Origin: Thermasporomyces composti
Lineage (GTDB): Bacteria; Actinomycetota; Actinomycetes; Propionibacteriales; Actinopolymorphaceae
Reading direction: 5' to 3'
DNA: 64,000 nt
Assembly (NCBI RefSeq): GCF_003386795.1
Contig: NZ_QTUC01000001.1
Coordinates: 2,666,001-2,730,000 of the forward strand
The notes below the pieces were generated by a model. That model searched no databases. It was not told the origin of the DNA and saw only the letters and a program-made list of their open reading frames with translations. The number at the start of each line of letters is the position of its first letter. Within the stretch, counting starts at the first letter, position 1. Below are positions 3,202-60,456 of the stretch, one piece after another. The position numbers and the translations under genes are program-made.

Positions 3202-3522
3202 GTGAGGCTCCCGATCGATGACCCTCAGGCACCTGTGTTCACCATCGGCCAGGTGTCGGAGATGCTGCAGGTCAAGCAGGCGTTCCTGCGACGGCTGGAT
3301 CAAGAGGGCGTTGTGTCTCCCGCCCGTTCGGAAGGCGGGCAGCGCCGGTACAGCCGCGACCAGATCGATCAGGTCGCGCAGGTGTGCAGCCTCGTCGCGG
3401 AAGGACTCACCCTCGCCGGGGTACGCCGGGTCATCGAACTCCAGACGCGAGTCGCTGCGCTTGAGGCCGAGCTCGCGCGGGAGCGTGCACGTCACACCCA
3501 GGGCCGCTCAAGCGGGGAGTGA
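3202..3522 (+). CDS. MerR-type transcriptional regulator (HspR-like size)
   Basis: A small one-domain regulator of about 106 residues. A winged-helix MerR domain opens with FTIGQVSEMLQVKQAFLRRL and the wing SEGGQRRYSRDQIDQV, followed by a short coiled-coil tail rich in Glu, Ala and Arg. No effector domain or metal-binding cysteines are visible, so it resembles the HspR/GlnR-like small MerR class. The GTG at 3202 is chosen because the promoter just upstream places the RNA start near 3171. The following GT4 gene starts 83 bases downstream and may be co-transcribed. Confidence 0.85.
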   Translation: MRLPIDDPQAPVFTIGQVSEMLQVKQAFLRRLDQEGVVSPARSEGGQRRYSRDQIDQVAQVCSLVAEGLTLAGVRRVIELQTRVAALEAELARERARHTQGRSSGE

Positions 3523-3605: not shown

Positions 3606-4892
3606 ATGGCCCTCGAGCACCCCATAGTGTCCACCGCCGGGTGGACGACCAGACGACCCCTGCGCATCGCGATGGTGGCACCGCCGTGGTTCGAGCTCCC
3701 ACCCGTCGGCTATGGCGGTATCGAATCGGTGGTCGCCGACCTGGTCGACGCGCTGGTGGCGCGTGGACACGAGATCACGCTCGTAGGGTCGGGCCGGAAC
3801 GGGACCAAGGCTCAGCGTTTCGTCCAGGTCTTCCCCGAGCCGCCGTTCCAGCGGTTGGGCGAGGCGATGCCGGAGGTGGTACACGCGGCCGCCGCGGCCG
3901 AGGCCCTCGAAGGCCTCGACGTCGACCTGGTTCACGACCACTGCTGCGCTGGGCCGTTGCTCGCTCGGGGTCGCCGGATCCCGACCGTGGTCACGGCGCA
4001 TGGTCCGGTGACGGGTGAGCCGGGCGACTACTTCCGCTACCTCGGTGACTCGATCGAGCTCGTCGCCATCTCCGACGCGCAGCGGCGGCTCAACCCTGCC
4101 CTCAACTGGGTCGGTCGCGTCCACAACGCGATCGACGTCGACACCTTTCCCTTCGCGGAGACCAAGGACGACTACGTGCTCTTCCTTGGTCGCTTCAACC
4201 CGGACAAGGGCGCGCACCTGGCGATCGACGCGGCCCGGCGTGCTGGGCGCCGCATCATCCTGGCCGGCAAGTGCAACGAGGCCCTGGAGAAGGCCTACTT
4301 CGAAGCCGAGATCAAGCCTCGGCTCGGCCCTGGCGTGGAGTACGTCGGTGAAGCGGACGCCACGATGAAGCGTGAGCTGTTCGCCGGCGCACGGTGCCTG
4401 GTCTTCCCCATTCAGTGGGACGAGCCGTTCGGCATGGTGATGATCGAGGCGATGGCCTGTGGGACGCCAGTCGTCGCGACCCGTCGCGGCAGCGTTCCTG
4501 AGGTGGTCGCCGACGGTGTCACCGGCCACATCATCGACGACCTCGACGACCTCCCGGCCGCGATCGTCGCCGCTGAGGAGCTGTCGCCGACCGCGTGTCG
4601 CCGACACGTCCGTGCCAAGTTCGACTTGCCGGTGATGGCCGAGGGTTACGAGCGCGTCTACCGCACGCTGGTCGAGGGCCGCGAGCTGCTGGAGGAGCTT
4701 CCGGAGGCGTCGGCTCGCCGACGCATGCCGGCCATGCGGCCGCCGACCGAGGTGGCCGCGGCCGCCGCGTCCACGGCGTCGACCACACCGTCAACCACCA
4801 CCAGGCCGCTGCCAACGGCGATCACCGAGGCTGGTGAGGTGGTCCGGCAGGCCGACATTGACGATCTGCCAGACCAGCGGAGGCGGCGCTAG
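3606..4892 (+). CDS. Glycosyltransferase family 4
   Basis: A 428-residue GT-B glycosyltransferase. The N-terminal Rossmann half opens with RIAMVAPPWFELPPVGYGG, the acceptor-side glycine-rich loop. The C-terminal half carries VLFLGRFNPDKG and the EPFGMVMIEAMACGTPVVA block with the E-x7-E donor-sugar motif. The last ~50 residues are Ala/Thr-rich and probably disordered. GGGAGG lies 12 bases before the ATG. The donor and acceptor are unknown. It stands apart from the glycan operon that starts at 6651 but could feed the same surface polymer. Confidence 0.9.
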   Translation: MALEHPIVSTAGWTTRRPLRIAMVAPPWFELPPVGYGGIESVVADLVDALVARGHEITLVGSGRNGTKAQRFVQVFPEPPFQRLGEAMPEVVHAAAAAEALEGLDVDLVHDHCCAGPLLARGRRIPTVVTAHGPVTGEPGDYFRYLGDSIELVAISDAQRRLNPALNWVGRVHNAIDVDTFPFAETKDDYVLFLGRFNPDKGAHLAIDAARRAGRRIILAGKCNEALEKAYFEAEIKPRLGPGVEYVGEADATMKRELFAGARCLVFPIQWDEPFGMVMIEAMACGTPVVATRRGSVPEVVADGVTGHIIDDLDDLPAAIVAAEELSPTACRRHVRAKFDLPVMAEGYERVYRTLVEGRELLEELPEASARRRMPAMRPPTEVAAAAASTASTTPSTTTRPLPTAITEAGEVVRQADIDDLPDQRRRR

Positions 4893-6650: not shown

Positions 6651-7688
6651 GTGCGGAGAAACTTTCGACGAGCGGTGATAACCGGCGGCGCCGGTTTCCT
6701 CGGTTCCCACCTATGCGAATACCTTCTCGAGCATGGGACCGAGGTGGTCTGTGTTGACAACTTCGCGACCGGTGACGCCCGGAATGTCGCCTCGCTGCTC
6801 GACCACGACGGTTTCCAGCTCGTGGTCGGTGATGCCTGCGATCCGCGCCATGTCAGAGCTCTCCCCGGTCCGGTCGACCTCGTGCTCCACCTCGCGTCGT
6901 TGGCCTCGCCGGCGTTCTACCTGCGGCGACCACTGGAGACGCTGTGGGTGGGCGCGGTGGGGACCGCGCACGCGTTGGAGCTGGCGCGGGCAAAAGGCGC
7001 ACGGTTCGTCCTCGCCTCGACAAGTGAAATCTACGGCGATCCGTTGGTGCACCCGCAGACCGAAAGCTACTGGGGAAACGTGAATTCCGTGGGCCCGCGC
7101 AGCGTCTACGACGAAAGCAAGCGGTACGCCGAGGCGTTGACGATGGCTTATCGTCGGGTTTACCGGCTGTCGACGGCGATCGTGCGCATCTTCAACACCT
7201 ATGGACCGAGAATGCGGCCTGACGACGGCCGAATGATTCCGACGTTCATCCGTCAGTCGTTGTCGAAGGAACCGTTGACCGTCGCGGGTGACGGTCTCCA
7301 GACGCGCTCGGTGTGCTACGTCAGCGACACCACACGCGGAATCATGGCGCTCGCCCACAGCGACGTCGCTGGCCCAGTGAACATCGGTAACCCTGAGGAG
7401 CGGACGGTACGCGAGATCGCGGAGAAGGTGGGGCAGCTCACGGGGCAACCGGTCCACCTACGCCACGTGGAGCGTCCCGTCGACGACCCGCGACGGCGAT
7501 GCCCGGACATCTCACTGGCGACGTCGCTGCTCGGCTGGCGACCGCACGTCGGCCTGGAGGAAGGGCTCCGGCACACGATCGACTGGTTCGCCCGCGAGAT
7601 GGGGCACGAGCAGGGGCAGAGGAGCCGCGACGAGGACCGCGCCGACCGAGGTCCACCGCCGGTACGGAGCCCGCTGTGGCACGGCTGA
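6651..7688 (+). CDS. NAD-dependent epimerase/dehydratase, UDP-xylose synthase-like
   Basis: An extended SDR of 345 residues. It has the NAD loop TGGAGFLGSHL near residue 10, the TSEIYGDP segment, the catalytic YDESK (Tyr-x3-Lys) and NTYGPRMRPDDGR, the pattern of UDP-glucuronate decarboxylase (UXS) and close dTDP-glucose 4,6-dehydratase relatives. UXS turns UDP-glucuronate into UDP-xylose. The operon also encodes the UDP-glucose dehydrogenase (17614-18912) that would make the substrate, which favours this reading. Start is GTG 6651 after a GGGGAAG site. The last ~30 residues are polar and nonconserved. Related decarboxylase/4-epimerase activities cannot be excluded. Confidence 0.85.
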   Translation: MRRNFRRAVITGGAGFLGSHLCEYLLEHGTEVVCVDNFATGDARNVASLLDHDGFQLVVGDACDPRHVRALPGPVDLVLHLASLASPAFYLRRPLETLWVGAVGTAHALELARAKGARFVLASTSEIYGDPLVHPQTESYWGNVNSVGPRSVYDESKRYAEALTMAYRRVYRLSTAIVRIFNTYGPRMRPDDGRMIPTFIRQSLSKEPLTVAGDGLQTRSVCYVSDTTRGIMALAHSDVAGPVNIGNPEERTVREIAEKVGQLTGQPVHLRHVERPVDDPRRRCPDISLATSLLGWRPHVGLEEGLRHTIDWFAREMGHEQGQRSRDEDRADRGPPPVRSPLWHG

Positions 7689-7750
7689 GCGGACGCTCTG
7701 GCAAGGCTCGCGGAGCGCCGGACCGACCAGCGAGAGACCTGGGGGGCTTC

Positions 7751-9403
7751 ATGCGGATCCTTGGCATCAACGCGATCTTCCACGATCCGGCGGCGGCTCT
7801 CGTCGTCGATGGACGGCTCGTCGCGGCGGCGGAGGAGGAGCGATTCAACCGGCGCAAGCACGGCAAGCGGCCCGTGCCGTTCTCCGCCTGGGAGCTTCCG
7901 GAGCAAGCGGCTCGCTGGTGCCTGGAGGCGGGGAAGCTGGAGCCGTCCGACCTCGACGCGGTGGCCTACTCCTATGACCCGTCGCTGGTGGAGCCAGGGC
8001 AACCCGGACTTGACGAGCCCTGGGAAGAGCTTCGCACCACCTACGCCCGCCGGGCGCCCCACTTCCTCGCCACCGCGCTCCCCGGTCTGGACCCGGCCAT
8101 CGTGCGGTTCGTGCCACACCACGTGGCGCACGCCGCCTCCGCCGGGCTGGCGGCACCCTTCGACGACTCGGCGGTGCTCGTGGCCGACGGACGCGGTGAG
8201 TGCGCCTCCTATCTCGCGGGCCTCTACCAGGGCACCGAGCTGACGACGCTCGCCACGCAGCGACTCCCGCACTCGCTGGGCCTGATGTACGAGGAGGTGA
8301 CGCAGCACCTGGGGTTCACGCGGTCCAGCGACGAGTACAAGGTCATGGCGCTCGCCTCCTACGGCAAGCCGCGCTTCCTCGACCTGATGCGCGAGGCGGT
8401 CCAGACGACCGGCGAGGGAGGCTTCATCGTCGAGCCCATCGACTGGGGTCAGCTGGCCGAGCCTCGACCCCCGGGCGGCGAGCTGCGCGCCGAGCACGCC
8501 GAGCTGGCGGCGAGCGTGCAGGCCCGCCTGGAGGAGGTGCTGCTGGAGCTGGTCGGCTGGCTCCACGAGCGAACCGGCGCCACGGCGCTGACCATGGCGG
8601 GTGGCGTCGCCCTCAACTGTGTGGCCAACACGCGCATCCTGGCCGAGGGCCCGTTCGAACGAATGTGGGTGCAGCCTGCGGCCGGCGACGCGGGCACCGC
8701 GCTCGGCGCGGCGCTGCACGTGGCCGCGATCGAGGGGGAGCGGCCCGAGCCCATGCGGACCGCCGCGTTGGGTCGGAGCTGGAGCGACGAGGAGCTCGCC
8801 GCCTGGCTGGACGCCGCCGCCGTTGCCTACGAGCGGCCTCCGGACGTCGCGGTGGCGGTCGCGGACGCGTTGGCCGCCAACCTGACCGTGGCGTGGTTCC
8901 AAGGTCGGAGCGAGTACGGGCCTCGGGCGCTCGGCCACCGGTCGCTGCTCGCGCACCCGGGTCGAGCCGAGAACCTCGACCGGCTCAACGCTGTCAAAGG
9001 TCGCGAACGGTTCCGGCCGATCGCGCCCATGGTGCTGGAGGAGCGCGCGGGGGAGCTGTTCGAGCGCGGGCCGATCCCGAGCCCGTACATGCTGTTCGTC
9101 CACGACGTCCGCCGGGAGTGGCGGGAGCGCATCCCCGCGGTCACGCACGTCGACGGGACGGCCCGCATCCAGACCGTCGACCGGGTGAGCGAGCCACTCC
9201 TGGCCCGGATGCTGGACCGCTTCGCCGAGCGGACCGGCCTTCCCGTCGTGGTCAACACCAGCCTCAACACGGCGGGACGGCCCATGGTGGACGATCCCCG
9301 GGACGCGCTGGAGTGCTTCGGCTCCGCGCCGGTCGACCTCCTGGCGATCGGGCCGTACCTGGTCCGCAGGTCCGGCGTCGCGGCGTCGGGGAGGGCGGCA
9401 TGA
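7751..9403 (+). CDS. NodU/CmcH-family O-carbamoyltransferase
   Basis: A 550-residue enzyme that moves a carbamoyl group from carbamoyl phosphate, via carbamoyl-AMP, to a hydroxyl of a sugar or natural product. Visible blocks are LGINAIFHDPAAALVVDG at the N-terminus, the His cluster PHHVAHAAS, YKVMALASYGKP, MAGGVALNCVAN, and in the YrdC-like C-terminal part GRSEYGPRALGHRSLL, KGRERFRPIAP and NTSLNTAGRPMVDDP. Full family length. The ATG at 7751 begins the conserved N-terminus 62 bases after the epimerase gene. Its place among glycosyltransferases points to carbamoylation of a surface glycan rather than an antibiotic. Confidence 0.94.
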   Translation: MRILGINAIFHDPAAALVVDGRLVAAAEEERFNRRKHGKRPVPFSAWELPEQAARWCLEAGKLEPSDLDAVAYSYDPSLVEPGQPGLDEPWEELRTTYARRAPHFLATALPGLDPAIVRFVPHHVAHAASAGLAAPFDDSAVLVADGRGECASYLAGLYQGTELTTLATQRLPHSLGLMYEEVTQHLGFTRSSDEYKVMALASYGKPRFLDLMREAVQTTGEGGFIVEPIDWGQLAEPRPPGGELRAEHAELAASVQARLEEVLLELVGWLHERTGATALTMAGGVALNCVANTRILAEGPFERMWVQPAAGDAGTALGAALHVAAIEGERPEPMRTAALGRSWSDEELAAWLDAAAVAYERPPDVAVAVADALAANLTVAWFQGRSEYGPRALGHRSLLAHPGRAENLDRLNAVKGRERFRPIAPMVLEERAGELFERGPIPSPYMLFVHDVRREWRERIPAVTHVDGTARIQTVDRVSEPLLARMLDRFAERTGLPVVVNTSLNTAGRPMVDDPRDALECFGSAPVDLLAIGPYLVRRSGVAASGRAA

Positions 9404-10515
9404 GACCCCCGGCGTCGTGGTCGCGCCCGGATCCGCGGGCCGCCTGGGGCTCCAGTCCGGTGACCAGCGAACCGAGACCCGCGGATGGCGCGAACCGTTC
9501 GTCCAGGCGGGCCTCCTATTCGGTGGTCGTGCCCACGGTCGGCCGCACCAGCCTGGTCCGCTGCCTGGTCGCCCTCGATACGTCGCGCGGTCCCGCGCCG
9601 GAGGCGGTGTTCGTGGTCGACGACCGGCGATACCCCGATCCGCCACTCGTGTTGCCGCCGACGTCGGTCCCGGTCAAGGTCTTGCTCTCCGGTGGGCGGG
9701 GTCCGGCGGCGGCGCGCAACGTCGGGTGGCGGGCAGCCGCCTCGACGTGGGTGGCGTTCCTCGACGACGACGTCGTGCCGGGGCCGACGTGGCTGGAGCA
9801 GCTCAACGACGACGTGCGCGACCTGCCGGACCACGTCGCGGGGAGCCAGGGACGGGTGCGGGTTCCGCTGCCGCCGGAGCGGCGTCCCACCGACGCCGAG
9901 CGTGGAACCGCCGCTCTGGCGCACGCTCGCTGGATCACCGCCGACATGGCGTACCGGACGGATGTCCTCGCCGAGGTGGGCGGGTTCGACGAGCGGTTCC
10001 GGCGCGCCTATCGCGAGGACTCCGACCTGGCGCTGCGCGTCTGCGGCGCGGGCTACGAGCTGGTCGCGGGTGACCGCGAGGTCCTCCATCCCGTCCGGCC
10101 GTCGGGGTTCTTCGCCAGCGTGCGCGCCCAGGCCGGCAACGCCGACGACGCGCTGATGCGGCGGCGGCACGGACGGACGTGGCGCCGCCGGGCCGGCGCG
10201 TCCCCCGGACGCCTGCGCCTGCACGCGGTGACGACGGCCGCCGGCGCCACCGCGCTCGGTCTGGCGGCGCGGCGCCGGCGGATCGCCGCGCTCGTCGCCG
10301 GAGCGGTGTGGGCGGGCCTGACGGGCGAGTTCGCGGCGCGACGCATCGTGGCAGGTCCACGCACCCCGACCGAGGTCGCCCGGATGGCGGTCACGAGTGT
10401 GCTCATCCCGCCCGTCGCGTGCGCGTACCGGGTGCTGGGGGCGATCCGACACGCTCGGGTGCGGCCGTACTCGCCGACGCGCGACCACCGAGGTCCTCGG
10501 GGGTGGACGAGGTGA
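9400..10515 (+). CDS. Glycosyltransferase family 2
   Basis: A 371-residue GT-A transferase whose ATG overlaps the carbamoyltransferase stop (ATGA). After ~35 polar residues come SVVVPTVGRTSLVRCL, the nucleotide-binding start, then GPAAARNVGWRAA and the FLDDDVVPGP Asp motif that binds metal and sugar nucleotide, and GGFDERFRRAYREDSDLALR with the ED pair of the catalytic base region. The last ~100 residues are basic, with two weak hydrophobic segments that may hold it at the membrane. Donor and acceptor unknown. Confidence 0.92.
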   Translation: MRPPASWSRPDPRAAWGSSPVTSEPRPADGANRSSRRASYSVVVPTVGRTSLVRCLVALDTSRGPAPEAVFVVDDRRYPDPPLVLPPTSVPVKVLLSGGRGPAAARNVGWRAAASTWVAFLDDDVVPGPTWLEQLNDDVRDLPDHVAGSQGRVRVPLPPERRPTDAERGTAALAHARWITADMAYRTDVLAEVGGFDERFRRAYREDSDLALRVCGAGYELVAGDREVLHPVRPSGFFASVRAQAGNADDALMRRRHGRTWRRRAGASPGRLRLHAVTTAAGATALGLAARRRRIAALVAGAVWAGLTGEFAARRIVAGPRTPTEVARMAVTSVLIPPVACAYRVLGAIRHARVRPYSPTRDHRGPRGWTR

Positions 10516-11528
10516 CCGGTCGGATCCTCGTCGCGCGCCTGGACAACATCGGGGACGTCCTGCTGGCAGGCCCCGCGGTCCGGGCGGTGGCCGCGCACGC
10601 CGACTCGGTGGTCTTCTTGGCCGGCCCGCGCGGTCGGGACGCCGCGGACTTGCTGCCCGGCGTCAGCCAGGTGCTGGAGTGGTGCGCGCCGTGGATCGAC
10701 CCGGAGCCGCAGCCGGTCACCGAGACCGAGGTCGCTCTCCTGCACAAGCAGGTGCGTGCCGCCGCTCCGGACGCGGCGCTCATCCTCACCTCGTTCCACC
10801 AGTCGCCGCTGCCGTTGGCGCTGCTGCTCCGACTGGCGGGCGTGGACTGGATCGGCGCCATCAGCGAGGACTACCCGGGATCGCTGCTCGACCTGCGGCA
10901 CCGGGTCGACGGCGATCCGCCGGAGGCGGAGCGCGCGCTCTCCCTGGCGCGAGCGGCCGGTTTCGACCTGCCGGACGGCGACGACGGCAGGCTCGCTGTT
11001 CGACGACCTCTCCCGGACGTGTCCGACCTCGTCGGCCGAGAACCGTACGTCGTCGTCCATCCCGGCGTCTCCGCGCCGGCCCGAGCATGGCTGCCCGACC
11101 GCTACGCGGCGACGGTGCGTCGCCTGCACGAGGTGGGCTACCGCGTCGTGGTGACCGGGTCGGCGAGCGAGCGGGAGCTGGCGGCCACCGTCGCCGGTGA
11201 CGTGGGTCTCGACCTCGCGGGGATGACCAACCTGCCCACGTTGGCGGCCGTCCTCGAGGGCGCGCGGGTGGTCGTGGCGCCCAACACCGGCCCAGCCCAC
11301 TTGGCGGCGGCGGTGGGAACGCCGGTGGTGTCGCTGTTCGCGCCGGTCGTGCCGGCGGCCCGCTGGGCGCCCTATGGGGTGCCGAGCGTCGTTCTCGGCG
11401 ACCAGGCCGCGCCCTGTCGCGACACCCGTGCCCGGACGTGCCCGGTCGCGGGACATCCCTGCCTCGCCGGCGTGACGGTCGAGGAGGTCGTGCACGCGGT
11501 GCGGCACCTGGCGGAGGTGTCGCGATGA
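10512..11528 (+). CDS. Glycosyltransferase family 9 (heptosyltransferase-like)
   Basis: A 338-residue GT-B protein. It opens with RILVARLDNIGDVLLAGPAVRA, the GT9 N-terminal signature, and ends with VVVAPNTGPAHLAAAVGTPV, the donor-binding loop shared with WaaC/WaaF ADP-heptose transferases. GTG at 10512 overlaps the previous stop (GTGA); a second GTG at 10503 is possible. Together with gmhA and hldE downstream this suggests transfer of a nucleotide-activated heptose, but sugar specificity cannot be read directly. Confidence 0.92.
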   Translation: MTGRILVARLDNIGDVLLAGPAVRAVAAHADSVVFLAGPRGRDAADLLPGVSQVLEWCAPWIDPEPQPVTETEVALLHKQVRAAAPDAALILTSFHQSPLPLALLLRLAGVDWIGAISEDYPGSLLDLRHRVDGDPPEAERALSLARAAGFDLPDGDDGRLAVRRPLPDVSDLVGREPYVVVHPGVSAPARAWLPDRYAATVRRLHEVGYRVVVTGSASERELAATVAGDVGLDLAGMTNLPTLAAVLEGARVVVAPNTGPAHLAAAVGTPVVSLFAPVVPAARWAPYGVPSVVLGDQAAPCRDTRARTCPVAGHPCLAGVTVEEVVHAVRHLAEVSR

Positions 11529-12490
11529 GGATCCTGCACTGGCACGTCCACGGCGCGTGGAGCACGGCGTTCGTCCACGGGCCCCACACCTACCTGGTGC
11601 CGGTGACTCGGGACCGAGGGCCGGACGGGCGAGGCCGAGCGCGGACCTACCGCTGGCCCGCCAACGCGGTCGAGGTGACTCCGCGGGAGCTGCGTCAAGC
11701 GGATGTTGACGTCGTGGTGCTGCAGCGGACGAGCGAGCTGCGGCTCGCGGAGCGGTGGCTCGGCCGTCGTCCCGGCCGAGATGTTCCCGCCGTCTACGTC
11801 GAGCACAACACCCCACGCGAGCGGGTGCCCGACGGCCGCCACCCGTTGGCGGAGCAGTCGGCGATCCCGATCGTCCACGTCACGCACTTCAACCAGCTGT
11901 TCTGGGACTGCGGTCGCGCTCCGACGACCGTCGTCGAGCACGGCATCGTGGACCCCGGCTACCGGTACGAGGGTGACCGGCCTCGCGCCGGTGTGGTCAT
12001 CAACGAGCCGATACGACGCTGGCGGGTCACCGGCACCGACCTGCTCGCGACCTTCAGCCGCACCAGCCCGCTCGACGTGTTCGGCATGGGGGTGCGCGAC
12101 CTGCCCACCCACGTGGGGGTCGACGACGGTCGCGTCGCCACCTTCGAGGACCTGCCGCAGCGCCGCATGCACGAGGAGCTGGCCCGCCGTCGGGTCTACC
12201 TGCACCCATTCCGGTGGACGTCGCTCGGCCTGGCCTTGGTGGAAGCCATGCACCTCGGCATGCCGGTCGTCAGCTTGGCCACCACGGAGGCGGTGGACGC
12301 CGTTCCGTCCGACGCGGGCGTGGTGTCGAACCGACCAGAGGTGCTGACTGACGCGCTGCGCGGCTTCCTCGCCGATCCGGAACGTGCCCGGGAGGCCGGC
12401 GCCGCCGCCCGGGCCGCGGCGACGAAGCGGTACTCCCTGGACCGGTTCCTCGCGGCGTGGGACCGGGTCTTCGAGGAGGTGACTCGATGA
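11525..12490 (+). CDS. Glycosyltransferase family 4-like
   Basis: A 321-residue protein starting MRILHWHVHGAWSTAF, with an ATGA overlap to the GT9 gene. The N-terminal half is short for GT4. The C-terminal half has YVEHNTPRERVPD, HEELARRRVYLHPFRWTSLGL and ALVEAMHLGMPVV, the E-x7-E-like region of GT4 enzymes. The product is probably a retaining GT-B sugar transferase of the same glycan. Substrates unknown. Confidence 0.85.
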   Translation: MRILHWHVHGAWSTAFVHGPHTYLVPVTRDRGPDGRGRARTYRWPANAVEVTPRELRQADVDVVVLQRTSELRLAERWLGRRPGRDVPAVYVEHNTPRERVPDGRHPLAEQSAIPIVHVTHFNQLFWDCGRAPTTVVEHGIVDPGYRYEGDRPRAGVVINEPIRRWRVTGTDLLATFSRTSPLDVFGMGVRDLPTHVGVDDGRVATFEDLPQRRMHEELARRRVYLHPFRWTSLGLALVEAMHLGMPVVSLATTEAVDAVPSDAGVVSNRPEVLTDALRGFLADPERAREAGAAARAAATKRYSLDRFLAAWDRVFEEVTR

Positions 12491-12533
12491 GCGCACGTCT
12501 GAGGTGACCCGCCGACGAGGAAGGAGGTGACCG

Positions 12534-13757
12534 ATGAGGATCGGCATGGTCTCCGAGCACGCCAGTCCGCTGGCACCGCTGGGTGGTGCCGACGCCGGAG
12601 GTCAGAACGTCCACGTGGCGGAGCTGTCCCGGGCGCTGGTGCGGCTCGGTCACGAGGTCGTCGTCTACACCCGCCGGGACGCGCGTGCGCTGCCGCCGCG
12701 GGTGCCCACGGCCGACGGGGTCGTCGTCGAGCATGTGCCGGCTGGACCGCCGACCGCGATCAGCAAGGACGACTTGCTGCCGTACATGGGCGAGTTCGGC
12801 TCCTACCTGGCCCGGCGGTGGTCGGTCTGGCGGCCGGACGTCGTCCACGCCCACTTCTGGCTCAGCGGCCTGGCCACCCGCTACGCCGCGGCAGCCGTGG
12901 GTGTTCCATGGGCGCAGACCTTCCACGCGTTGGGCAGCGTCAAGCGGCGCCACCAGGGCGCGAAGGACCCGAGCCCGCCGAGCCGACTGCGGCTCGAGGC
13001 GGAGCTCGTGCGTGCCGCCGACCTCGTGGTCGCCACCTGTGCGGAGGAGGTGGCGGAGCTGCGGGCGATGGGCATGCCCGAGGGCCGCGCCGTGGTCGTG
13101 CCCTGCGGCGTGGACCTCACCACCTTCACCCCCGACGGGCCGGTCGCGCCGCGTTCCGCGCGTCCCCGAATCCTGAGCATCGGGCGGCTCGTCGAGCGCA
13201 AGGGTGTCGACACGGTGATCCGCGCCCTCGCCGCCGTCCCGGCCGCCGAGCTGGTCGTCGCCGGCGGACCGGCTCCGTCGAGGCTCGAGGCCGACCCGGA
13301 GGTGCGACGGCTGCGCACGGTCGCCGCCGAGTGTGGGGTCGCCGACCGGGTGCGCTTCATCGGTCGGGTCGCCCGGGACGCCGTTCCCGCCCTCTATCGG
13401 TCGGCGGACGTCGTCGTCAGCGTGCCGTGGTACGAGCCGTTCGGCATGGTGCCGCTGGAGGCGATGGCCTGCGGAGTTCCTCCCGTCGTCACCGCGGTCG
13501 GCGGCCACCTCGACACCGTGGTCGAGCAGGTGACCGGGCGGTTCGTCCCACCTCGAGACAGCGAGCGGCTCGGCCGGGTGCTGGCGGAGCTCCTCGACGA
13601 CGGCGCGTTGCGCGCCAAGCTCGGCGCGGCGGGAGCGGACCGCGCTCGTGCGGCGTACGGCTGGGACAGCGTGGCGGCGCAGACGCAGGCGCACTACGCG
13701 CGGCTGTGTGCGGTCGACCCGACGTCCAGCGCGACAGCGGCGGGAGGTGAGCCGTGA
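12534..13757 (+). CDS. Glycosyltransferase family 4 (MshA/sucrose-phosphate-synthase-like)
   Basis: A 407-residue GT-B enzyme preceded by a strong AAGGAGGT site. It opens with MRIGMVSEHASPLAPLGGAD and GGQNVHVAELSRALVRLGHEV, the pattern of MshA and sucrose-phosphate synthase relatives. The C-terminal half holds SIGRLVERKGVDTVIRAL and EPFGMVPLEAMACGVPPVVTA with E-x7-E. The next gene, gmhA, starts inside its stop codon. It is likely a core transferase of the glycan; mycothiol synthesis is less likely given the neighbours. Confidence 0.92.
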   Translation: MRIGMVSEHASPLAPLGGADAGGQNVHVAELSRALVRLGHEVVVYTRRDARALPPRVPTADGVVVEHVPAGPPTAISKDDLLPYMGEFGSYLARRWSVWRPDVVHAHFWLSGLATRYAAAAVGVPWAQTFHALGSVKRRHQGAKDPSPPSRLRLEAELVRAADLVVATCAEEVAELRAMGMPEGRAVVVPCGVDLTTFTPDGPVAPRSARPRILSIGRLVERKGVDTVIRALAAVPAAELVVAGGPAPSRLEADPEVRRLRTVAAECGVADRVRFIGRVARDAVPALYRSADVVVSVPWYEPFGMVPLEAMACGVPPVVTAVGGHLDTVVEQVTGRFVPPRDSERLGRVLAELLDDGALRAKLGAAGADRARAAYGWDSVAAQTQAHYARLCAVDPTSSATAAGGEP

Positions 13758-14350
13758 TCGAGGAGCACTTCGCCGCCCTGCGCCGCACGGTCGGCAGGAT
13801 GGAGACCGACCGGGCGGTCATGGCGACGCTGCGGCGCTGGGGATCGCACCTGGCCGGCGTCCTGCAGACCGGTGGCCGACTTCTCGCTTGCGGCAATGGC
13901 GGCAGCGCGGCCGAAGCGCAGCACCTGACCAGCGAAGTGACCGGCCGGTTCCGGAGGGACCGACCGCCCTACGCGGCGCTCGCGTTGCATGCCGACACCT
14001 CGGCTATCACGGCGATCCTCAACGACTACGGACCCGACGAGGTCTTCGCCCGTCAGGTGCGGGCGCATGGTCGCCCGGGCGACGTGCTGGTGGCCCTGTC
14101 GACGAGCGGGCGCAGCGCGAACGTCCTCGCCGCCGCGGCGAACGCGCACGCGATGGGTCTGACGACCTGGGCGCTCACCGGCCCTCAGCCGAACCAGCTC
14201 GCGTCGATCTGCGACGACGGGATCTGCGTCCCGGCGGACGAGGTCGCGACCGTGCAGGAGGTCCACCTGCTGCTCATCCACGCCTTGTGCGAGGTCCTCG
14301 ACGAGGCGTTGCGGGCGAGGCGGCCGTTGGGCGAGGAGGAACCGGCATGA
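13754..14350 (+). CDS. gmhA: Phosphoheptose isomerase (SIS domain)
   Basis: A 198-residue SIS-domain enzyme matching GmhA, which converts sedoheptulose 7-phosphate to D-glycero-D-manno-heptose 7-phosphate. Visible blocks are LLACGNGGSAAEAQHLTSE (phosphate loop and catalytic Glu region), ILNDYGPDEVFARQV, ALSTSGRSANVLAAA (SIS Ser/Thr loop) and EVATVQEVHLLLIHALCE with the C-terminal catalytic His. Length is normal for the family. GTG at 13754 overlaps the GT4 stop, and its own stop overlaps hldE, so coupling is tight. DiaA-type non-enzymatic relatives exist, but the context favours the isomerase. Confidence 0.92.
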   Translation: MIEEHFAALRRTVGRMETDRAVMATLRRWGSHLAGVLQTGGRLLACGNGGSAAEAQHLTSEVTGRFRRDRPPYAALALHADTSAITAILNDYGPDEVFARQVRAHGRPGDVLVALSTSGRSANVLAAAANAHAMGLTTWALTGPQPNQLASICDDGICVPADEVATVQEVHLLLIHALCEVLDEALRARRPLGEEEPA

Positions 14351-15816
14351 GCGGAGAGCTCGTCATCGTCGGCGACACACTCCTCGACGTCGACATCGAG
14401 GGCACCACCGAGCGGCTGTGTCCGGACACACCCGCGCCCGTGGTCGATGTCGAGTGCGAGCGGTCGCGCCCAGGCGGGGCGGGGCTGGCCGCGCTGCTCG
14501 CCGCCCGGTCCGGCCACCGCGTGGTGCTGGTCAGTGCGTTCGGCGACGACCCGGCCGCCCAGCAGCTGCACGCCATGCTGGGCGGCGAGGTGGAGGTCGT
14601 CGGCCTGCCGCTGCGCGGCCGGACCGTGCGCAAGACCCGGGTGCGGGCCGCCGGGCAGGTGCTCGTGCGCCTCGACGACGGAGACGGGCAGGCAGCCCAC
14701 GAGATCCCGAGCGAGCGGGCGCTGACCGTCCTGCGCCACGCCGGCGCGGTGCTCGTGGCCGACTACGGGCGAGGCGTCGCGGGGGTCTCGGCGCTTCGCC
14801 GGGAGCTGGCCCGAGTCGCGTCCCGCGTCCCTGTCGTGTGGGACCCGCACCCGCGCGGCTCGACTCCCGTCGCCGGCCTGTGCCTGGCCACACCGAACCA
14901 GGACGAGGCCGAGACCTTCGCGGCCGCCCTCGTGGCGGAGTCGAACGGCTTCGGCGTGACGGTCACGCCGAACGGTGACGCGCTCAACGGTCGGCGGGCC
15001 ACGGACGGCCAGGCCACCATCGGCAGCGTCGACGCGTTCCGTGCCGCGGCGGCGCTGCGTCAGACGTGGGGCACGCAGGCTGTCGTCGTCACACTCGGGG
15101 CGCGCGGGGCCGCGTTCGTCGGAGCGGCGGACACCGCGGTCGACGGCGTGAGCCGGATCCCGTCGCCCGACGACATTGTCGTGCCACCAGGCGCCGACAC
15201 CTGCGGCGCGGGGGACAGCTTCGCGGTCGCCGCGGCTGGGGCGCTGCTCGCCGGCGCGTCGCCCCGGGACGCCGCGCGGGCCGCGGTACGGGAGGCGACG
15301 GCGTTCGTCGCGGCCGGCGGGGCGAGCGCGGTGACCGTGGCGCCGGAACCACGCCGTCCGGCCGTCGTGACGGACGCGTTCGACCTGGCTGACGTGGTGC
15401 GCCGGCGAGGCGGGCGGGTGGTCGCCGCCGGCGGCTGCTTCGACCTGCTCCACCCGGGGCACGTGAGCTTGCTGCGCCGGGCGCGGGAGCTCGGTGACGT
15501 CCTCATCGTCTGCGTCAACTCCGACGAGTCCGTCCGGCGGCTCAAGGGGCCAGGTCGACCCATCATGACCGCGCGCGACCGGGTGGGGATGCTGCGTGCG
15601 CTCGACTGCGTCGACGCCGCCGTCGTCTTCGACGAGACCGCGCCCCTCGACCTGCTGGAGCGACTCCGCCCCGACGTGTGGGTGAAGGGCGGCGACTACG
15701 CCGACACCGAGCTGCCCGAAGCGGAGGTCGTCCGCCGGCACGGCGGCGAGGTCGTCCTCATCCCCACGGTTGCGGGCTACTCGACCACTCGCTTGGTGAG
15801 CGGCGTTCGCGGCTGA
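14347..15816 (+). CDS. hldE: Bifunctional heptose-7-phosphate kinase / heptose-1-phosphate nucleotidyltransferase
   Basis: A 489-residue fusion like HldE/RfaE. Residues ~1-345 form a PfkB/ribokinase kinase with an early Gly-rich RPGGAG motif, DPHPRGS and the catalytic DTCGAGDSFA. Residues ~355-489 form a nucleotidyltransferase with GGCFDLLHPGHVSLL (GxFDxxHxGH), KGPGRPIMTARDRV and WVKGGDYADTELPE. It would phosphorylate heptose 7-phosphate and then activate heptose 1-phosphate. The intermediate 7-phosphatase GmhB and, for an ADP-L-heptose end product, epimerase HldD are not in the window. ATGA overlap with gmhA. Confidence 0.93.
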   Translation: MSGELVIVGDTLLDVDIEGTTERLCPDTPAPVVDVECERSRPGGAGLAALLAARSGHRVVLVSAFGDDPAAQQLHAMLGGEVEVVGLPLRGRTVRKTRVRAAGQVLVRLDDGDGQAAHEIPSERALTVLRHAGAVLVADYGRGVAGVSALRRELARVASRVPVVWDPHPRGSTPVAGLCLATPNQDEAETFAAALVAESNGFGVTVTPNGDALNGRRATDGQATIGSVDAFRAAAALRQTWGTQAVVVTLGARGAAFVGAADTAVDGVSRIPSPDDIVVPPGADTCGAGDSFAVAAAGALLAGASPRDAARAAVREATAFVAAGGASAVTVAPEPRRPAVVTDAFDLADVVRRRGGRVVAAGGCFDLLHPGHVSLLRRARELGDVLIVCVNSDESVRRLKGPGRPIMTARDRVGMLRALDCVDAAVVFDETAPLDLLERLRPDVWVKGGDYADTELPEAEVVRRHGGEVVLIPTVAGYSTTRLVSGVRG

Positions 15817-15833
15817 GTTCCCGCGCCGTGTCG

Positions 15834-15905
15834 GACACGAACACGGGGTCTGGCACGAGCACGGGGCCTGACAAGAACACGGGGCCTGACAAGAACACGG
15901 GGAAG
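15834..15905. repeat. Tandem 18-base repeat, about four copies
   Basis: Units start at 15834, 15852, 15870 and 15888 (consensus GACAAGAACACGGGGCCT; the last is partial and merges into the ribosome-binding site of the next gene). The array fills most of the 99-base spacer between hldE and the SDR gene. There are no spacers between units. Confidence 0.8.
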
Positions 15906-15915
15906 GAGCGAGCCG

Positions 15916-16605
15916 ATGAGATCACCCGGGAACGTCCTCGTCACCGGCGGCGCCTCAGGGCTGGGCGCGGCCACCGTCGAGGCGGTGGTGGCGCACGGAG
16001 GAACCGCGTTGGTCATCGACCGGGCGACCCCTCAGGGGCCCGCGAAGTTCGTCCGGGCCGACCTGGCCGACCGGGAGGCGACCGAACGCGCGGTGCGTGA
16101 GCTGGTCGACGACGTCGGGGGACGCCTCGACGGCGTGTTCACCGCGGCCGGCGTCGACTCCTGCGGCCGGCTTGACGAGGTCCCCGCCGACGACTGGGAA
16201 CGGGTGATCCAGGTCAACCTGATCGGCACCGCCACGGTCGCCCGGGCCGCCCTGCCCTACCTCGAGCGCTCTCGCGGGAGGCTCGTGACCTGCGCGTCCA
16301 CGCTCGGGCTCAAGGCGGTGAGCGACGCCACGGCGTACTGCGCTTCGAAGTTCGGGGTCGTCGGCTTCACTCGCGCGCTGGCCGCCGAGACGGCCGGCCG
16401 GATCGGCGTCACCCTGCTCGTGCCCGGTGGCATGCGCACACCGTTCTTCGACGGTCGGGACGAGCAGTACAAGCCGCCGCCGGGTGCCAGCCTCAACGAC
16501 CCCCGGGACGTGGCGGCCATGGTGCTCGTCGCGCTGACCCAGCCGCCGGGCTGTGAGGTGCGGGAGATGGTGATCTGCCCGTCGGAGGAGACCTCATGGC
16601 CCTGA
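15916..16605 (+). CDS. Short-chain dehydrogenase/reductase
   Basis: A classical SDR of 229 residues: VLVTGGASGLGAATVEAV (TGxxxGxG cofactor loop), FTAAGVDSCG (NAG-like motif region), Ser in TCASTLGLKAVSDATAYCASK and the catalytic Tyr-x3-Lys (YCASK). It is an oxidoreductase of a sugar or lipid hydroxyl/ketone, probably making a glycan building block. It is not the extended-SDR type expected for HldD. AAGGAG lies 9 bases before the ATG, at the end of the tandem repeat. It overlaps the next GT9 gene by 10 bases. Confidence 0.9.
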   Translation: MRSPGNVLVTGGASGLGAATVEAVVAHGGTALVIDRATPQGPAKFVRADLADREATERAVRELVDDVGGRLDGVFTAAGVDSCGRLDEVPADDWERVIQVNLIGTATVARAALPYLERSRGRLVTCASTLGLKAVSDATAYCASKFGVVGFTRALAAETAGRIGVTLLVPGGMRTPFFDGRDEQYKPPPGASLNDPRDVAAMVLVALTQPPGCEVREMVICPSEETSWP

Positions 16606-17621
16606 GCCGGCGCACGATCGTGGTGCTGCGGGCGCTCGGGCTGGGTGACCTGCTCACCGCCGTCCCGGCGGTACGTGCGCTGCGACGGGCGTATCCCGAC
16701 GACCGGCTCGTGCTCGCCACCCCGGCCGCGCTGGCTGCTGTCGTGTCGCTCGTCGGCGGGGTGGACGACATCGCACCGACCACGCACCCCGCGTCCGTGC
16801 CGTGGCGGGAGGCGCCGCCGGACCTGGCGGTGAACCTGCACGGCATGGGACCGCAGAGCATCCGCGGTCTGCTGGCTCTCACGCCGCGTCGACTCCTCAG
16901 CCACGCCCATCCGGATTTCCCCGACGTGGACGGTCCGGCGTGGGTGGAGGATCTCCACGAGATCGACCGGTGGTGTCGTCTCGTCGAGTACGCCGGTGTC
17001 CCCGCCGACCTTGCGGACCTCGCCCTGGCACGGCCGGCGGTGCCCAGCCCAGCGCCGGGTGCGGTGGTCATCCATCCGGGCGCGAGTCACGCCGCGCGTC
17101 GCTGGCCGAGTGAGCGGTACGCGCGGGTGGCGCGAGAGCTCGCCAAGGCCGGGCACCTCGTCGTCGTCACCGGCAGCCAGGCCGAGTACACCCTCGCGGA
17201 GCGAGTGGTGGCGGCGGCCGGGCTTCCGGGCGACGCGCTGCTGGCGGGCCGGACCCGGCTCGTCGACCTCGCCGCGCTCGTCGCCGACGCGGCGCTCGTG
17301 GTGTGCGGCGACACCGGCGTCGGCCACCTGGCCACGGCCTATGGGACGCCGTCGGTGCTGCTGTTCGGGCCGGTCTCGCCTCACACGTGGGGGCCGCCGC
17401 GTGACCGGCCGCAGCACGTCGCGTTGTGGGCGGGCCGGCTCGGTGACACGTTCGCCGACACGCCGGACCCGGGCCTGCTGCGGGTGTCGGACGCCGACGT
17501 GCTGCACGAGGCGCGTCGCCTCCTCGCCGGCGGGACCACTCCGAAGCCCTCGACGACCGAACCCCTGGCGGAACGGCTTCTCTCGAGAGAGTCCTTGGCG
17601 AAGGAACACGGTCATGGGTAG
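16596..17621 (+). CDS. Glycosyltransferase family 9 (heptosyltransferase-like)
   Basis: A second GT9 enzyme, 341 residues, with TIVVLRALGLGDLLTAVPAV at the N-terminus and, in the donor domain, VVIHPGASHAARRWPSERYA and VVCGDTGVGHLATAYGTPS. The GDxxTAVP loop and the GDTGxGHLA motif are the family hallmarks. It is diverged from the first GT9 (10512-11528), so the two probably add successive residues. The C-terminal ~40 residues are polar. Its end overlaps ugd by 8 bases. Confidence 0.92.
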   Translation: MALSRRTIVVLRALGLGDLLTAVPAVRALRRAYPDDRLVLATPAALAAVVSLVGGVDDIAPTTHPASVPWREAPPDLAVNLHGMGPQSIRGLLALTPRRLLSHAHPDFPDVDGPAWVEDLHEIDRWCRLVEYAGVPADLADLALARPAVPSPAPGAVVIHPGASHAARRWPSERYARVARELAKAGHLVVVTGSQAEYTLAERVVAAAGLPGDALLAGRTRLVDLAALVADAALVVCGDTGVGHLATAYGTPSVLLFGPVSPHTWGPPRDRPQHVALWAGRLGDTFADTPDPGLLRVSDADVLHEARRLLAGGTTPKPSTTEPLAERLLSRESLAKEHGHG

Positions 17622-18912
17622 CTGCCGGGTGACCGTGGTCGGTGCCGGTTACGTGGGCCTCACCAGCGCCACGTGCCTGGCCCGGCTCGGCCACCGCGTC
17701 GTGTGCGTCGACAACGACACGGCCAAGGTCGCGAGCCTGTGCGAGGGGCGGGTTCCGTTCTACGAGCCGGACCTGGACAAGCTGCTGCGGGAGGGATTGG
17801 CGTCCGAACGGCTGCGGGTGACGACCGCGCTCCCGGAAGCCGTCCGCGACGCCGACCTGGTCCTGCTGTGCGTGCCCACGCCGATGGGCGACGACGGTGG
17901 CGCTGACCTCGGCGCGGTACGGACCGTCCTCGCCAAGATGCGGACCTCCCTGCCGTCCGGTTGTGTCGTCGTCACCAAGTCCACCGTGCCCGTCGGCACG
18001 TCCCATCGGATCCGCGAGCTTCTCCGACGACCGGACGTCTCGGTCGCCAGCAACCCGGAGTTTCTTCGCGAGGGCACGGCCGTTCGCGACTTCTTCTCAC
18101 CCGACCGCATCGTCATCGGCGTCGACGACCCGCACGCGCGTGACAGACTCAGCGAGCTGTACGAGGCGATCCCAGCGCCACGGGTCTGGACCGACCCGGT
18201 CAGTGCGGAACTGACGAAGTACGCCGCCAACGCCATGCTGGCGCTGCGGGTCTCCTACGCCAACGTTCTCGCCGAGCTGTGCGAGAAGGTCGGCGCGGAC
18301 ATCCGCGATGTCATCGAGGCGATGGGGTACGACGAGCGAATCGGACCCGCCTTCCTCCGGCCGGGCCCCGGGTGGGGTGGCTCGTGCCTCCCCAAGGACG
18401 CCCACGAGTTGGTGCGCGCGGCGGCGTCCGTCGGGGTTGACGCGGGCATGGTGCGGGAGGCGCTGGCCATCAACGACCGTCAGGCGCGCCGAGTGGTCGC
18501 GCGGACGCGCCGCCTGGCGACCGGCTCGGCCGACGGATCCCTGCGCGGGGTCCGGGTCGGTCTGCTCGGCCTGGCGTTCAAGGCCGGCACGGATGACCTG
18601 CGCGACTCGCCCGCGTTGACGGTCGCTCGGCTGCTTGGGGAGGACGGCGCGGACCTCACGGCGTACGACCCGGGTGTGAGGGCGGAGCGTGCGGATGTGG
18701 TGCCGGCCGTGGTCGTCGACGATCCGTACCGGGTCGCGAAGGGCGCCTCCGTGCTCGTGGTGCTCACGGAGTGGCCGGAGTTCCAGCACCTCGACTGGGG
18801 ACGGCTGGCAGACCTCATGGTGCGGCCAGTCGTGCTCGACACCCGCAACCACCTGCCCGCGGACGACGTTCGCGCCGCCGGCCTGGAGTGGCACGGACTC
18901 GGCATCGGCTGA
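17614..18912 (+). CDS. ugd: UDP-glucose 6-dehydrogenase
   Basis: A 432-residue NAD enzyme oxidising UDP-glucose to UDP-glucuronate. Visible are the Rossmann loop VTVVGAGYVGLTSATCLA, LCVPTPMGDDGG, SNPEFLREGTAVRDFFSPDR, and the active-site loop GPGWGGSCLPKDAHEL containing the catalytic Cys, followed by the C-terminal UDP-binding domain (LGLAFKAGTDDLRDSP). Length and motifs are complete. It is the last gene of the operon, while the first gene is a UXS-like enzyme, so UDP-glucuronate and UDP-xylose can be made in situ. GDP-mannose dehydrogenase is an alternative but less likely. Confidence 0.94.
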   Translation: MGSCRVTVVGAGYVGLTSATCLARLGHRVVCVDNDTAKVASLCEGRVPFYEPDLDKLLREGLASERLRVTTALPEAVRDADLVLLCVPTPMGDDGGADLGAVRTVLAKMRTSLPSGCVVVTKSTVPVGTSHRIRELLRRPDVSVASNPEFLREGTAVRDFFSPDRIVIGVDDPHARDRLSELYEAIPAPRVWTDPVSAELTKYAANAMLALRVSYANVLAELCEKVGADIRDVIEAMGYDERIGPAFLRPGPGWGGSCLPKDAHELVRAAASVGVDAGMVREALAINDRQARRVVARTRRLATGSADGSLRGVRVGLLGLAFKAGTDDLRDSPALTVARLLGEDGADLTAYDPGVRAERADVVPAVVVDDPYRVAKGASVLVVLTEWPEFQHLDWGRLADLMVRPVVLDTRNHLPADDVRAAGLEWHGLGIG

Positions 18913-41182: not shown

Positions 41183-42339
41183 CCAGCGCGCCGCGAATCG
41201 ACACCGCCGACACCGTGAGGCGGGCGAACGCGGCTCGACCTCAGCGGAGGTCCTCGCGAGCGTCCGCGCTCCTCGCCCTGCCGGGAGCGGTCGCGCTACT
41301 CGCCGGCCTGGACGCCGCTCTCCTGCTCCTCGACCTCCCGGCGCCAGTGACCGCCGCGCGTCTGCGTGACGTCCATGGCGTGCTGCTCGTCCTCGGCTTC
41401 GTGGGCTGCGTCGTCGCCCTCGAGCGCGCCGTGGCGCTCAGAGCCGCACCAGGATTCGTCGCGCCCGGCCTCCTCGGACTGGGTGCGGTGGCGCTCGTCA
41501 CGCCGCTCCCTGGCACGCTCGGCGGCACGGCGCTGCTGCTCGGCACGCTGGCGCTCGTCGCCGTCTATGTCCCGCTTTGGCGGCGGCAACGCGGGGACGT
41601 CGTCCTCGTCCAGATCCTGGGTGCCGTGCTCGCCGCCGGCGCGGCCACGCTGTGGCTGGGTGGTGTGCCCGTTCCCCACCTCATCCCGTGGCTCGCCGGC
41701 TTCGTCGTCCTCACCGTCGCCGCCGAACGGGTGGAGCTCGCCCGCATCGCCGTCCCGGCGAGCACCGAACGCGGCGTCCTGCTCGCCTCCGGCGCGGTGA
41801 CCGTCGCGACCGTCGCGGCACTGCTCTGGCCCCGCGTCGGCTATCCCGCCCTCGGGCTCGCGGTTCTCGGCCTCACTGGTTGGCTCGCCAGCCACGACGT
41901 CGCCCGCCGGACGCTACGTGGCCACGGGCTCGCGAGGTTCACGGCGGGGTGTGTGCTGGAGGCCTACGCCTGGCTGGCGGTCGCCGCGGTCAGCTGGCTG
42001 GTCGGCGGGCCGGTCTTCGACGGCGAGCGGTACGACGCGGTGGTGCACGCGGTGTTCCTGGGCTTCACGATCTCGATGATCATGGCGCACGCACCGATGG
42101 TTCTTCCGGCTGTGCTCCGGATACCGCTGACGTTTCACCCAGTGCTCGCGGCGCCCGCCGCGCTGCTGCACCTCTCCCTCGTCCTGCGGCTGTGGGTGGG
42201 CGACGCGCTCCACGTGACCGCGGCGTGGCGGGTCGGGGGTGCGCTCAACATCGTCGCGGTGCTCGCGTTCGCCGTCCTCATGGCCTGGTCGGCCGTGACC
42301 ACCAGCCAGTCGAGTCAGTCGAAGAGGAGCGCGCGATGA
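41179..42339 (+). CDS. NnrS-like polytopic membrane protein
   Basis: A 386-residue protein with about eleven to twelve hydrophobic segments and the motif HAVFLGFTISMIMAHAPMVL, resembling NnrS-type heme/copper membrane proteins associated with nitric oxide metabolism. His and Met residues in the helices could bind metal. It is coupled by ATGA overlaps to the regulator upstream and to the copper fusion protein downstream. Exact function is unproven. Confidence 0.75.
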   Translation: MTSAPRIDTADTVRRANAARPQRRSSRASALLALPGAVALLAGLDAALLLLDLPAPVTAARLRDVHGVLLVLGFVGCVVALERAVALRAAPGFVAPGLLGLGAVALVTPLPGTLGGTALLLGTLALVAVYVPLWRRQRGDVVLVQILGAVLAAGAATLWLGGVPVPHLIPWLAGFVVLTVAAERVELARIAVPASTERGVLLASGAVTVATVAALLWPRVGYPALGLAVLGLTGWLASHDVARRTLRGHGLARFTAGCVLEAYAWLAVAAVSWLVGGPVFDGERYDAVVHAVFLGFTISMIMAHAPMVLPAVLRIPLTFHPVLAAPAALLHLSLVLRLWVGDALHVTAAWRVGGALNIVAVLAFAVLMAWSAVTTSQSSQSKRSAR

Positions 42340-60315: not shown

Positions 60316-60431
60316 GCCCCTCCCGTCGGGCCAAGACTGGGCGTGCGGCTGGACGACGAGAGGCTGGCCAGCTAAGCCGAGTATGACCGCTCGTTCGGGG
60401 CTACCTGCATGACCGCGAGACGGCCGTCTGA
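60316..60431 (+). pseudogene. Decayed 3' end of a second enolase-superfamily gene
   Basis: Codons from 60316 read PPVGPRLGVRLDDERLAS, a stop at 60373-60375, then AEYDRSFG, and after a frameshift YLHDRETAV and a stop at 60429-60431. This matches the C-terminus of the intact dehydratase ([30 protein letters not shown] at 59281-59380) in order and spacing. The rest of the gene is gone. It is a remnant of a diverged paralogue, left between the hydrolase and the GH92 gene. Confidence 0.75.
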
Positions 60432-60456
60432 CCGGGTGGCGAACCGAGGTGACGCG

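Follow-up and report, generated by a model that had tools for sequence, protein, structure and literature searches.

The locus considered here raises the question of what genes of the Gram-negative lipopolysaccharide (LPS) heptose pathway are doing in a Gram-positive bacterium, and whether the pathway to which they belong is complete. It lies at positions 6651 to 18912 of the window, the whole 64,000-nucleotide stretch of Thermasporomyces composti DNA that was analysed (2666001-2730000 of a 4.37 Mb genome, single contig, 97.6% complete), and consists of eleven intact, co-directional plus-strand genes. We consider it quite probable that these constitute a glycan operon of the cwg type, conserved among actinobacteria, and the product is very probably a surface sugar that contains heptose and xylose. 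The initial annotation had presented LPS genes in a Gram-positive as unusual, a view that does not hold for an operon of a conserved actinobacterial type that fits cwg of Streptomyces coelicolor. The operon type is thus already known, the copy in the window being a real, intact member of it; what the current study adds is the fusion of GmhB to a glycosyltransferase in relatives, the loss of GmhB in the window, and the lack of HldD in a sample of the class.

Composition and conservation of the operon

Scans of the operon proteins against NCBIfam (including its equivalog cut-offs) and Pfam, with solved relatives taken from the PDB, identified the following genes, in this order:

6651-7688, plus strand: UXS, UDP-xylose synthase (UDP-glucuronate decarboxylase); nearest PDB match UDP-glucuronate decarboxylase 1
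7751-9403, plus strand: CT, O-carbamoyltransferase of NodU/TobZ type; PF02543 and PF16861 over cut-off
9400-10515, plus strand: GT2 glycosyltransferase; PF00535, 44 bits; alternative GTG start at 9460 possible
10512-11528, plus strand: GT9a, heptosyltransferase-family glycosyltransferase; PF01075, 101 bits, over cut-off
11525-12490, plus strand: GT4a, GT4-type glycosyltransferase; PF00534, 37 bits, over cut-off
12534-13757, plus strand: GT4b, GT4-type glycosyltransferase; PF00534, 133 bits
13754-14350, plus strand: GmhA, sedoheptulose-7-phosphate isomerase; PDB phosphoheptose isomerases
14347-15816, plus strand: HldE, heptose-7-phosphate kinase and heptose-1-phosphate adenylyltransferase, fused; TIGR02199, TIGR02198 and PDB
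15916-16605, plus strand: SDR, classical short-chain dehydrogenase/reductase (oxidoreductase); PF00106, 134 bits; TGGASGLG and YCASK in the translation
16596-17621, plus strand: GT9b, second heptosyltransferase-family glycosyltransferase; PF01075, 103 bits, over cut-off
17614-18912, plus strand: UGD, nucleotide-sugar (probably UDP-glucose) 6-dehydrogenase; TIGR03026, 435 bits, cut-off 190

Every gene named in the initial annotation was found by these scans, intact and co-directional, the SDR between HldE and GT9b being the one that it had overlooked. Its description of the junctions as mostly overlaps of 4-10 bases applies to seven of the ten: 4 bases at CT/GT2, GT2/GT9a, GT9a/GT4a, GT4b/GmhA and GmhA/HldE, 10 at SDR/GT9b and 8 at GT9b/UGD, with gaps of 62, 43 and 99 bases at the remaining three.

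The assignments of UXS and CT draw on solved structures. UXS reached none of the NCBIfam cut-offs; its best PDB matches are chains 4gll, 2b69, 4m55 and 4lk3 (E 1e-96 to 2e-95), which we take to be human UDP-glucuronate decarboxylase 1, the next family following at just 6e-39, and its catalytic segments TSE, YDESK and GPRM-DGR align with solved UDP-glucuronate decarboxylases, as befits a UXS among the extended SDRs. CT matches 7xb6 and 9s2t (decarbamoylnovobiocin carbamoyltransferase), TobZ and GdmN at E 1.5e-93 to 5e-81. UGD additionally contains PF03721, PF00984 and PF03720, with the UDP-glucose equivalogs TuaD and AglM next, under their cut-offs, while the nearest model of GT4b is MshA (TIGR03449), at 231 bits under a cut-off of 462.

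A gene-neighbourhood comparison, which the initial annotation had put forward as a check, was performed on the best 80 of at least 500 stretches encoding HldE relatives, out of at least 592 matched contig stretches. All 80 loci are actinobacterial, and HldE has these genes around it in Pseudonocardiaceae, Nocardia, Mycobacterium and Streptosporangiaceae alike. As far as contig ends and a 10 kb flank allow, HldE is accompanied by GmhA in 79 loci, SDR in 77, GT9b in 76, GT9a in 71, UXS and GT4b in 68 each, CT in 67, GT4a in 63, GT2 and GmhB in 62 each and UGD in 43, both GT9 genes being present in 68. Since most of the set recurs in this manner, the operon is not a chance assembly. In an evenly drawn class sample of 296 genomes, HldE (called at E <= 1e-40, five candidates scored per genome shown) was found in 69 genomes and in 39 of 115 genera. 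Plasmids also yielded 33 records matching HldE; the one examined (H1, Embleya) has only GmhA and HldE of the eleven genes, with an 87-bit match to the GmhB profile next to them. In some Amycolatopsis (L025, L030, L031, L043) the operon is split, a GT2 and GT9a pair lying approximately 1.5-4.5 kb downstream of UGD.

The gene order likewise links the operon to cwg (SCO6179-6190) of S. coelicolor, which the available excerpts of Tran et al. 2019 (PMC6767563) describe as a twelve-gene target of sigma-E with a predicted cell wall glycan as product. The products printed in the accessible part of PMC5839063, a list from which cwgF is absent, are transferases for cwgB, cwgC, cwgE, cwgG and cwgJ, a dehydratase for cwgD, a phosphoheptose isomerase for cwgH and a bifunctional synthase/transferase for cwgI. 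As printed there, the products of cwgB-E and cwgG-J fit, in order, CT, GT2, a GmhB-like protein, GT9a, GT4b, GmhA, HldE and GT9b, a fit that needs the "dehydratase" of cwgD to be a phosphatase of GmhB/HisB type, as we infer it to be. Three streptomycete-like stretches, which presumably come from streptomycetes of one group, read UXS-CT-GT2-GmhB-GT9a-GT4a-GT4b-GmhA-HldE, with GT9b next in two of them and a contig end in the third. The window has the order of the two that are readable past HldE, minus GmhB and plus SDR, and in gene order it accordingly agrees with cwg. Hong et al. 2002 is reportedly the source for the cwg operon and the sigma-E regulon.

Upstream of the operon are a MerR-type regulator (3202-3522) and a further GT4-type glycosyltransferase (3606-4892), which stands outside the conserved set counted above. 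Elsewhere in the window, a long open frame at 42225-44993 has multicopper oxidase and cupredoxin domains, and 60409-64000 encodes a glycoside hydrolase of family GH92 (Glyco_hydro_92, 438 bits), which also carries F5/8 type C and DUF7402 domains and extends past the window end.

The predicted heptose pathway, GmhB and HldD

GmhA matches the solved phosphoheptose isomerases 5i01, 1tk9 and 1x92 (E 2e-45 to 8e-43) and aligns with them across GNGGSA, SEVTGRF and QEVH, presumably active-site segments. HldE is matched by 5x9q over its transferase half and by 4e84 over its kinase half, the adenylyltransferase half scoring 182.3 bits with TIGR02199, over the cut-off of 181.5. The excerpts of PMC11461863 tie the use of CTP/UTP to Arg as the fifth residue of (F/L)XXGXSTT and also name an exception. 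The C-terminal motif of HldE in the window is TVAGYSTT, with Tyr, not Arg, at the position read as the specificity site, which favours ADP-heptose as its product. The families, the PDB matches of UXS, CT, GmhA and HldE, and the near-strict co-occurrence of HldE and GmhB across the class all support the predicted pathway for heptose, xylose/uronate and carbamoyl groups, and the heptose idea of the initial annotation was probably right.

Of the four enzymes of the ADP-heptose pathway, GmhA and HldE are thus present in the window, and the absence of GmhB and HldD noted there earlier extends, as far as profile searches show, to the whole genome. The entire single contig gave no match to TIGR00213, while TIGR01656 and a profile of the relatives' GmhB returned weak, partial, generic HAD matches only (best 4.0e-7), so the suggestion that GmhB lies elsewhere in the genome found no support. 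The relatives explain the gap, as GmhB there is either fused to GT2 or a separate gene. Their HAD domain begins with an invariant DRDxT and has an equally invariant Cys-His-Cys-Cys loop (alignment of 17 rows), a loop that we take to be zinc-related in GmhB, and the profile of this domain recovers the solved GmhB enzymes 4pnh, 3l8e and 2gmw. In 38 of the 80 loci (frame-checked) the cwg GT2 continues at its C-terminus, in frame, into GmhB; in 24 GmhB is a separate gene (among them L014, a contig edge), and in 18 it is not present in the stretch. In 19 loci of Streptosporangiaceae and their kin it is separate, mostly divergent, and just upstream of CT. Seven of the 18 loci without a local GmhB were searched genome-wide (L026, L032, L041, L079, L033, L016, L070; L012 and L036 as controls) and a strong match lies elsewhere in each of the seven genomes, the genome of L088 having a weaker, partial one. 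The idea that GmhB must be missing from a genome whenever it is missing from the locus was consequently rejected.

Across the class sample, with at most 12 candidates scored per genome shown, a strong GmhB match (>=200 bits) was obtained in 68 of 296 genomes, comprising 66 of the 69 with HldE and two of the 227 without (G208, G310), the weakest of these scoring 205 bits (E 3e-60); a further 20 genomes, all without HldE, have weaker matches only (E <= 1e-15). The three HldE-positive genomes without a strong GmhB, namely that of the window (G000), G200 and G252, remained so on a fuller search that scored 121 of 121, 150 of 196 and 150 of 151 candidates, respectively. G200 encodes a GmhA-HldE fusion protein (L139 9088-11127) outside any cwg set, possibly of the tridomain heptose synthetase type named in a paper's title, whereas the draft genome G252 has a cwg set in which no GmhB was detected. 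Among genomes of the same order as the window that possess HldE, GmhB was present in ten of ten tested (E <= 1e-69). The same search covered two same-family genomes that lack HldE, of which G001 yielded a match of 100 bits and G002 nothing above 33 bits.

Alignment of the window GT2 with 16 relatives, 11 of them fused, revealed that it matches up to the linker and ends where the GmhB domain would begin, with a tail of approximately 17 residues unlike that of any relative. The loss of GmhB would be survivable, given that it is only partly required in Escherichia coli, where according to the excerpts of PMC9302095 mutants retain some full-length LPS and an enzyme yet to be identified is thought to substitute.

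HldD was found over cut-off in none of the 296 class genomes (seven candidates scored per genome shown); the 14 controls of that search gave matches in E. coli, Caulobacter and Haloferax, of which two passed the cut-off. The 6-epimerase HldD is required for the L,D form only, and given its lack the donor is likely to be ADP-D-glycero-D-manno-heptose (the initial annotation had suggested D-glycero-D-manno-heptose), provided that neither the SDR nor any other enzyme modifies it. An HldD concealed among the extended SDRs of the window genome was considered and rejected, as all seven matches were weak and under cut-off. The SDR could be detected in neither of the two streptomycete-like operons readable past HldE and is, for this reason, probably dispensable for ADP-heptose itself.

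Gene identities, their conservation, and the occurrence of GmhB in relatives without a detectable copy here are read directly from the sequence; the reactions, sugar order and envelope location that follow are predicted from them. The kinase half of HldE would yield the 1,7-bisphosphate, whose 7-phosphate would be removed by the GT2-fused or separate GmhB in relatives and by another phosphatase in the window genome. The GT2/GT4 enzymes would draw on UDP-glucuronate and UDP-xylose made by UGD and UXS, a hydroxyl would receive a carbamate cap from the carbamoyltransferase, and the SDR would probably oxidise or reduce a heptose-containing intermediate; the oligosaccharide would then reach the cell envelope via export machinery encoded outside the operon. 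A bolder proposal, which we offer tentatively, is that a carbamoylated D,D-heptose/xylose glycan, made by cwg operons, is common to the envelopes of many actinobacteria and corresponds, in these Gram-positives, to the inner core of LPS. In that proposal the GT2-GmhB fusion might tie the dephosphorylation of heptose bisphosphate to the assembly of the glycan, the window lineage would have lost GmhB and use an unrecognised phosphatase, and the HldE-linked SDR might make an undescribed heptose derivative in place of the HldD step.

Origin and competing explanations

A tree built from seven concatenated proteins (38 rows, quick method) places the window with L055, L076, L051 and L063, namely Saccharopolyspora, Halopolyspora and two metagenome-assembled genomes of Pseudonocardiales (SH-aLRT 99), all four of which carry the GT2-GmhB fusion; the same-order genomes L122, L125 and L126 stand apart from the window, and a fourth, L123, falls in another group. 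The simplest reading that this suggests is transfer from a Pseudonocardiales-like donor with GmhB on its GT2, followed by deletion of the GmhB domain, differential loss being a less simple alternative. At third codon positions the GC content (GC3) of UXS is 0.80, below the 0.87-0.91 of the remaining ten genes, and UXS may differ from them in origin.

Several observations weigh against a cwg-type glycan operon as we interpret it. The family scans found no polymerase, flippase or exporter among the eleven genes, and no phosphatase for heptose-1,7-bisphosphate was identified in the window genome, which leaves a gap in the pathway. GmhA scores 170 bits with TIGR00441 under a cut-off of 209, the kinase half of HldE 107 bits with TIGR02198 under a cut-off of 345, and both GT9 proteins lie under the equivalog cut-offs for LPS heptosyltransferases I, II and III, so that these would be divergent members; the GT9 proteins belong to PF01075, their use of an ADP-heptose donor being a prediction. 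The likeness to cwg rests on printed product names and on genomes taken for streptomycetes. Furthermore, the 450 bases upstream of 6651 contain no sigma-E-like promoter (AAC-N16/18-GTC type) by a pattern that recognised four of four published sites, and such sites occurred in 15 of 188 upstream regions against 9.7 expected. A sigma-E promoter for the window operon was accordingly rejected; we regard such a promoter as belonging to the regulation of the S. coelicolor copy and not as a mark of the gene set.

The alternative that survives best, albeit an improbable one, is that the operon is decaying, a remnant of a transferred cluster that lost GmhB and makes no heptose. This would be in keeping with the undetected GmhB, with an operon GC content of 73.0%, the remainder of the window having 69.0%, and with the lack of any HldE match at E <= 0.001 in seven same-family genomes (27 of 29-44 candidates scored in each). 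It is at odds with the eleven intact frames, their tight overlaps and strong GC3 bias (0.80-0.91), with the partial LPS competence of E. coli GmhB mutants, and with G252, which likewise retains its cwg set.

Slightly less probable still is the production of a heptose-containing small molecule, antibiotic-like in the manner of septacidin or hygromycin B, in place of an envelope glycan. Heptose pathways are published for the septacidin and spicamycin antibiotics (excerpts of PMC10948575 and PMC11461863), the fusion protein of G200 lies outside a cwg set, and the operon itself encodes neither polymerase nor exporter. Set against this are the five glycosyltransferases with UXS and UGD and no other scaffold-building enzyme, the similar sets in many genera (HldE alone in 39 of those sampled), and the induction of S. 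coelicolor cwg by vancomycin within a cell-envelope regulon, as stated in the excerpts of PMC6767563. That GmhA and HldE have a different sugar phosphate as substrate, and the GT9 proteins a different donor, is the least probable explanation, for although the HldE kinase half falls far under its cut-off and has PGGAG in place of the LGGAAN of 4e84 (as do 65 of 71 called HldE proteins, with PGGAG), the adenylyltransferase half passes its equivalog cut-off, GmhA aligns across its active-site segments, and both are tightly linked to two GT9 genes and a GmhB-type phosphatase with the invariant loop.

Relation to known heptose and cell wall glycan systems

The word heptose does not occur in the available text of the cwg papers PMC6767563 and PMC13011467, and searches joining cwg, heptose, Streptomyces and cell wall, or heptose, S. 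coelicolor and carbamoyltransferase, or phosphoheptose isomerase and mycobacterium, returned no paper; a phosphoheptose isomerase is nonetheless among the cwg products printed in PMC5839063. The actinobacterial surface glycan papers PMC13390465, PMC13274773 and PMC11481543 contain neither 'heptose' nor 'cwg', and on this topic a Rhodococcus review (PMC12786566) mentions only a gmhD knock-out. The GT2-GmhB fusion is not stated in the parts of the literature consulted, no search having been aimed at it. For a vancomycin-responsive member of the envelope regulon with a product that is only predicted (excerpts of PMC6767563), the D,D-heptose reading, with GmhA, HldE, a GmhB often fused to GT2 and no HldD, offers concrete and testable chemistry that applies to cwg and its relatives, including those of mycobacteria and Nocardia. 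NDP-heptoses are, moreover, described as innate immune agonists in the excerpts of PMC11461863. The cwg genomes without detectable GmhB, those of the window and G252, are natural places in which to find a substitute phosphatase such as the one thought to exist in E. coli (excerpts of PMC9302095).

Compared with the ADP-heptose pathway of the Gram-negative LPS inner core (GmhA, HldE, GmhB, HldD), the window shares GmhA, the fused HldE and the GT9 family, and differs in the undetected GmhB of its genome, in an HldD that is lacking throughout the class sample and in several proteins under equivalog cut-offs. With the NDP-heptose pathways of septacidin, spicamycin and hygromycin B, as the excerpts of PMC10948575 describe them, it has in common the enzymes from sedoheptulose-7-phosphate to NDP-heptose; those are metabolite clusters, whereas the window holds a GT9/GT4/UXS glycan operon, and its HldE has two domains in contrast to an isomerase-kinase-transferase fusion such as that in G200. 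S. coelicolor cwg is the closest comparison, from which the window differs in having SDR and UGD within the run, no GmhB-type gene and no sigma-E-like promoter just upstream. In both cases the genes form a single operon for a putative cell wall glycan, a product that is likewise only predicted for S. coelicolor in the excerpts of PMC6767563 and PMC5839063.

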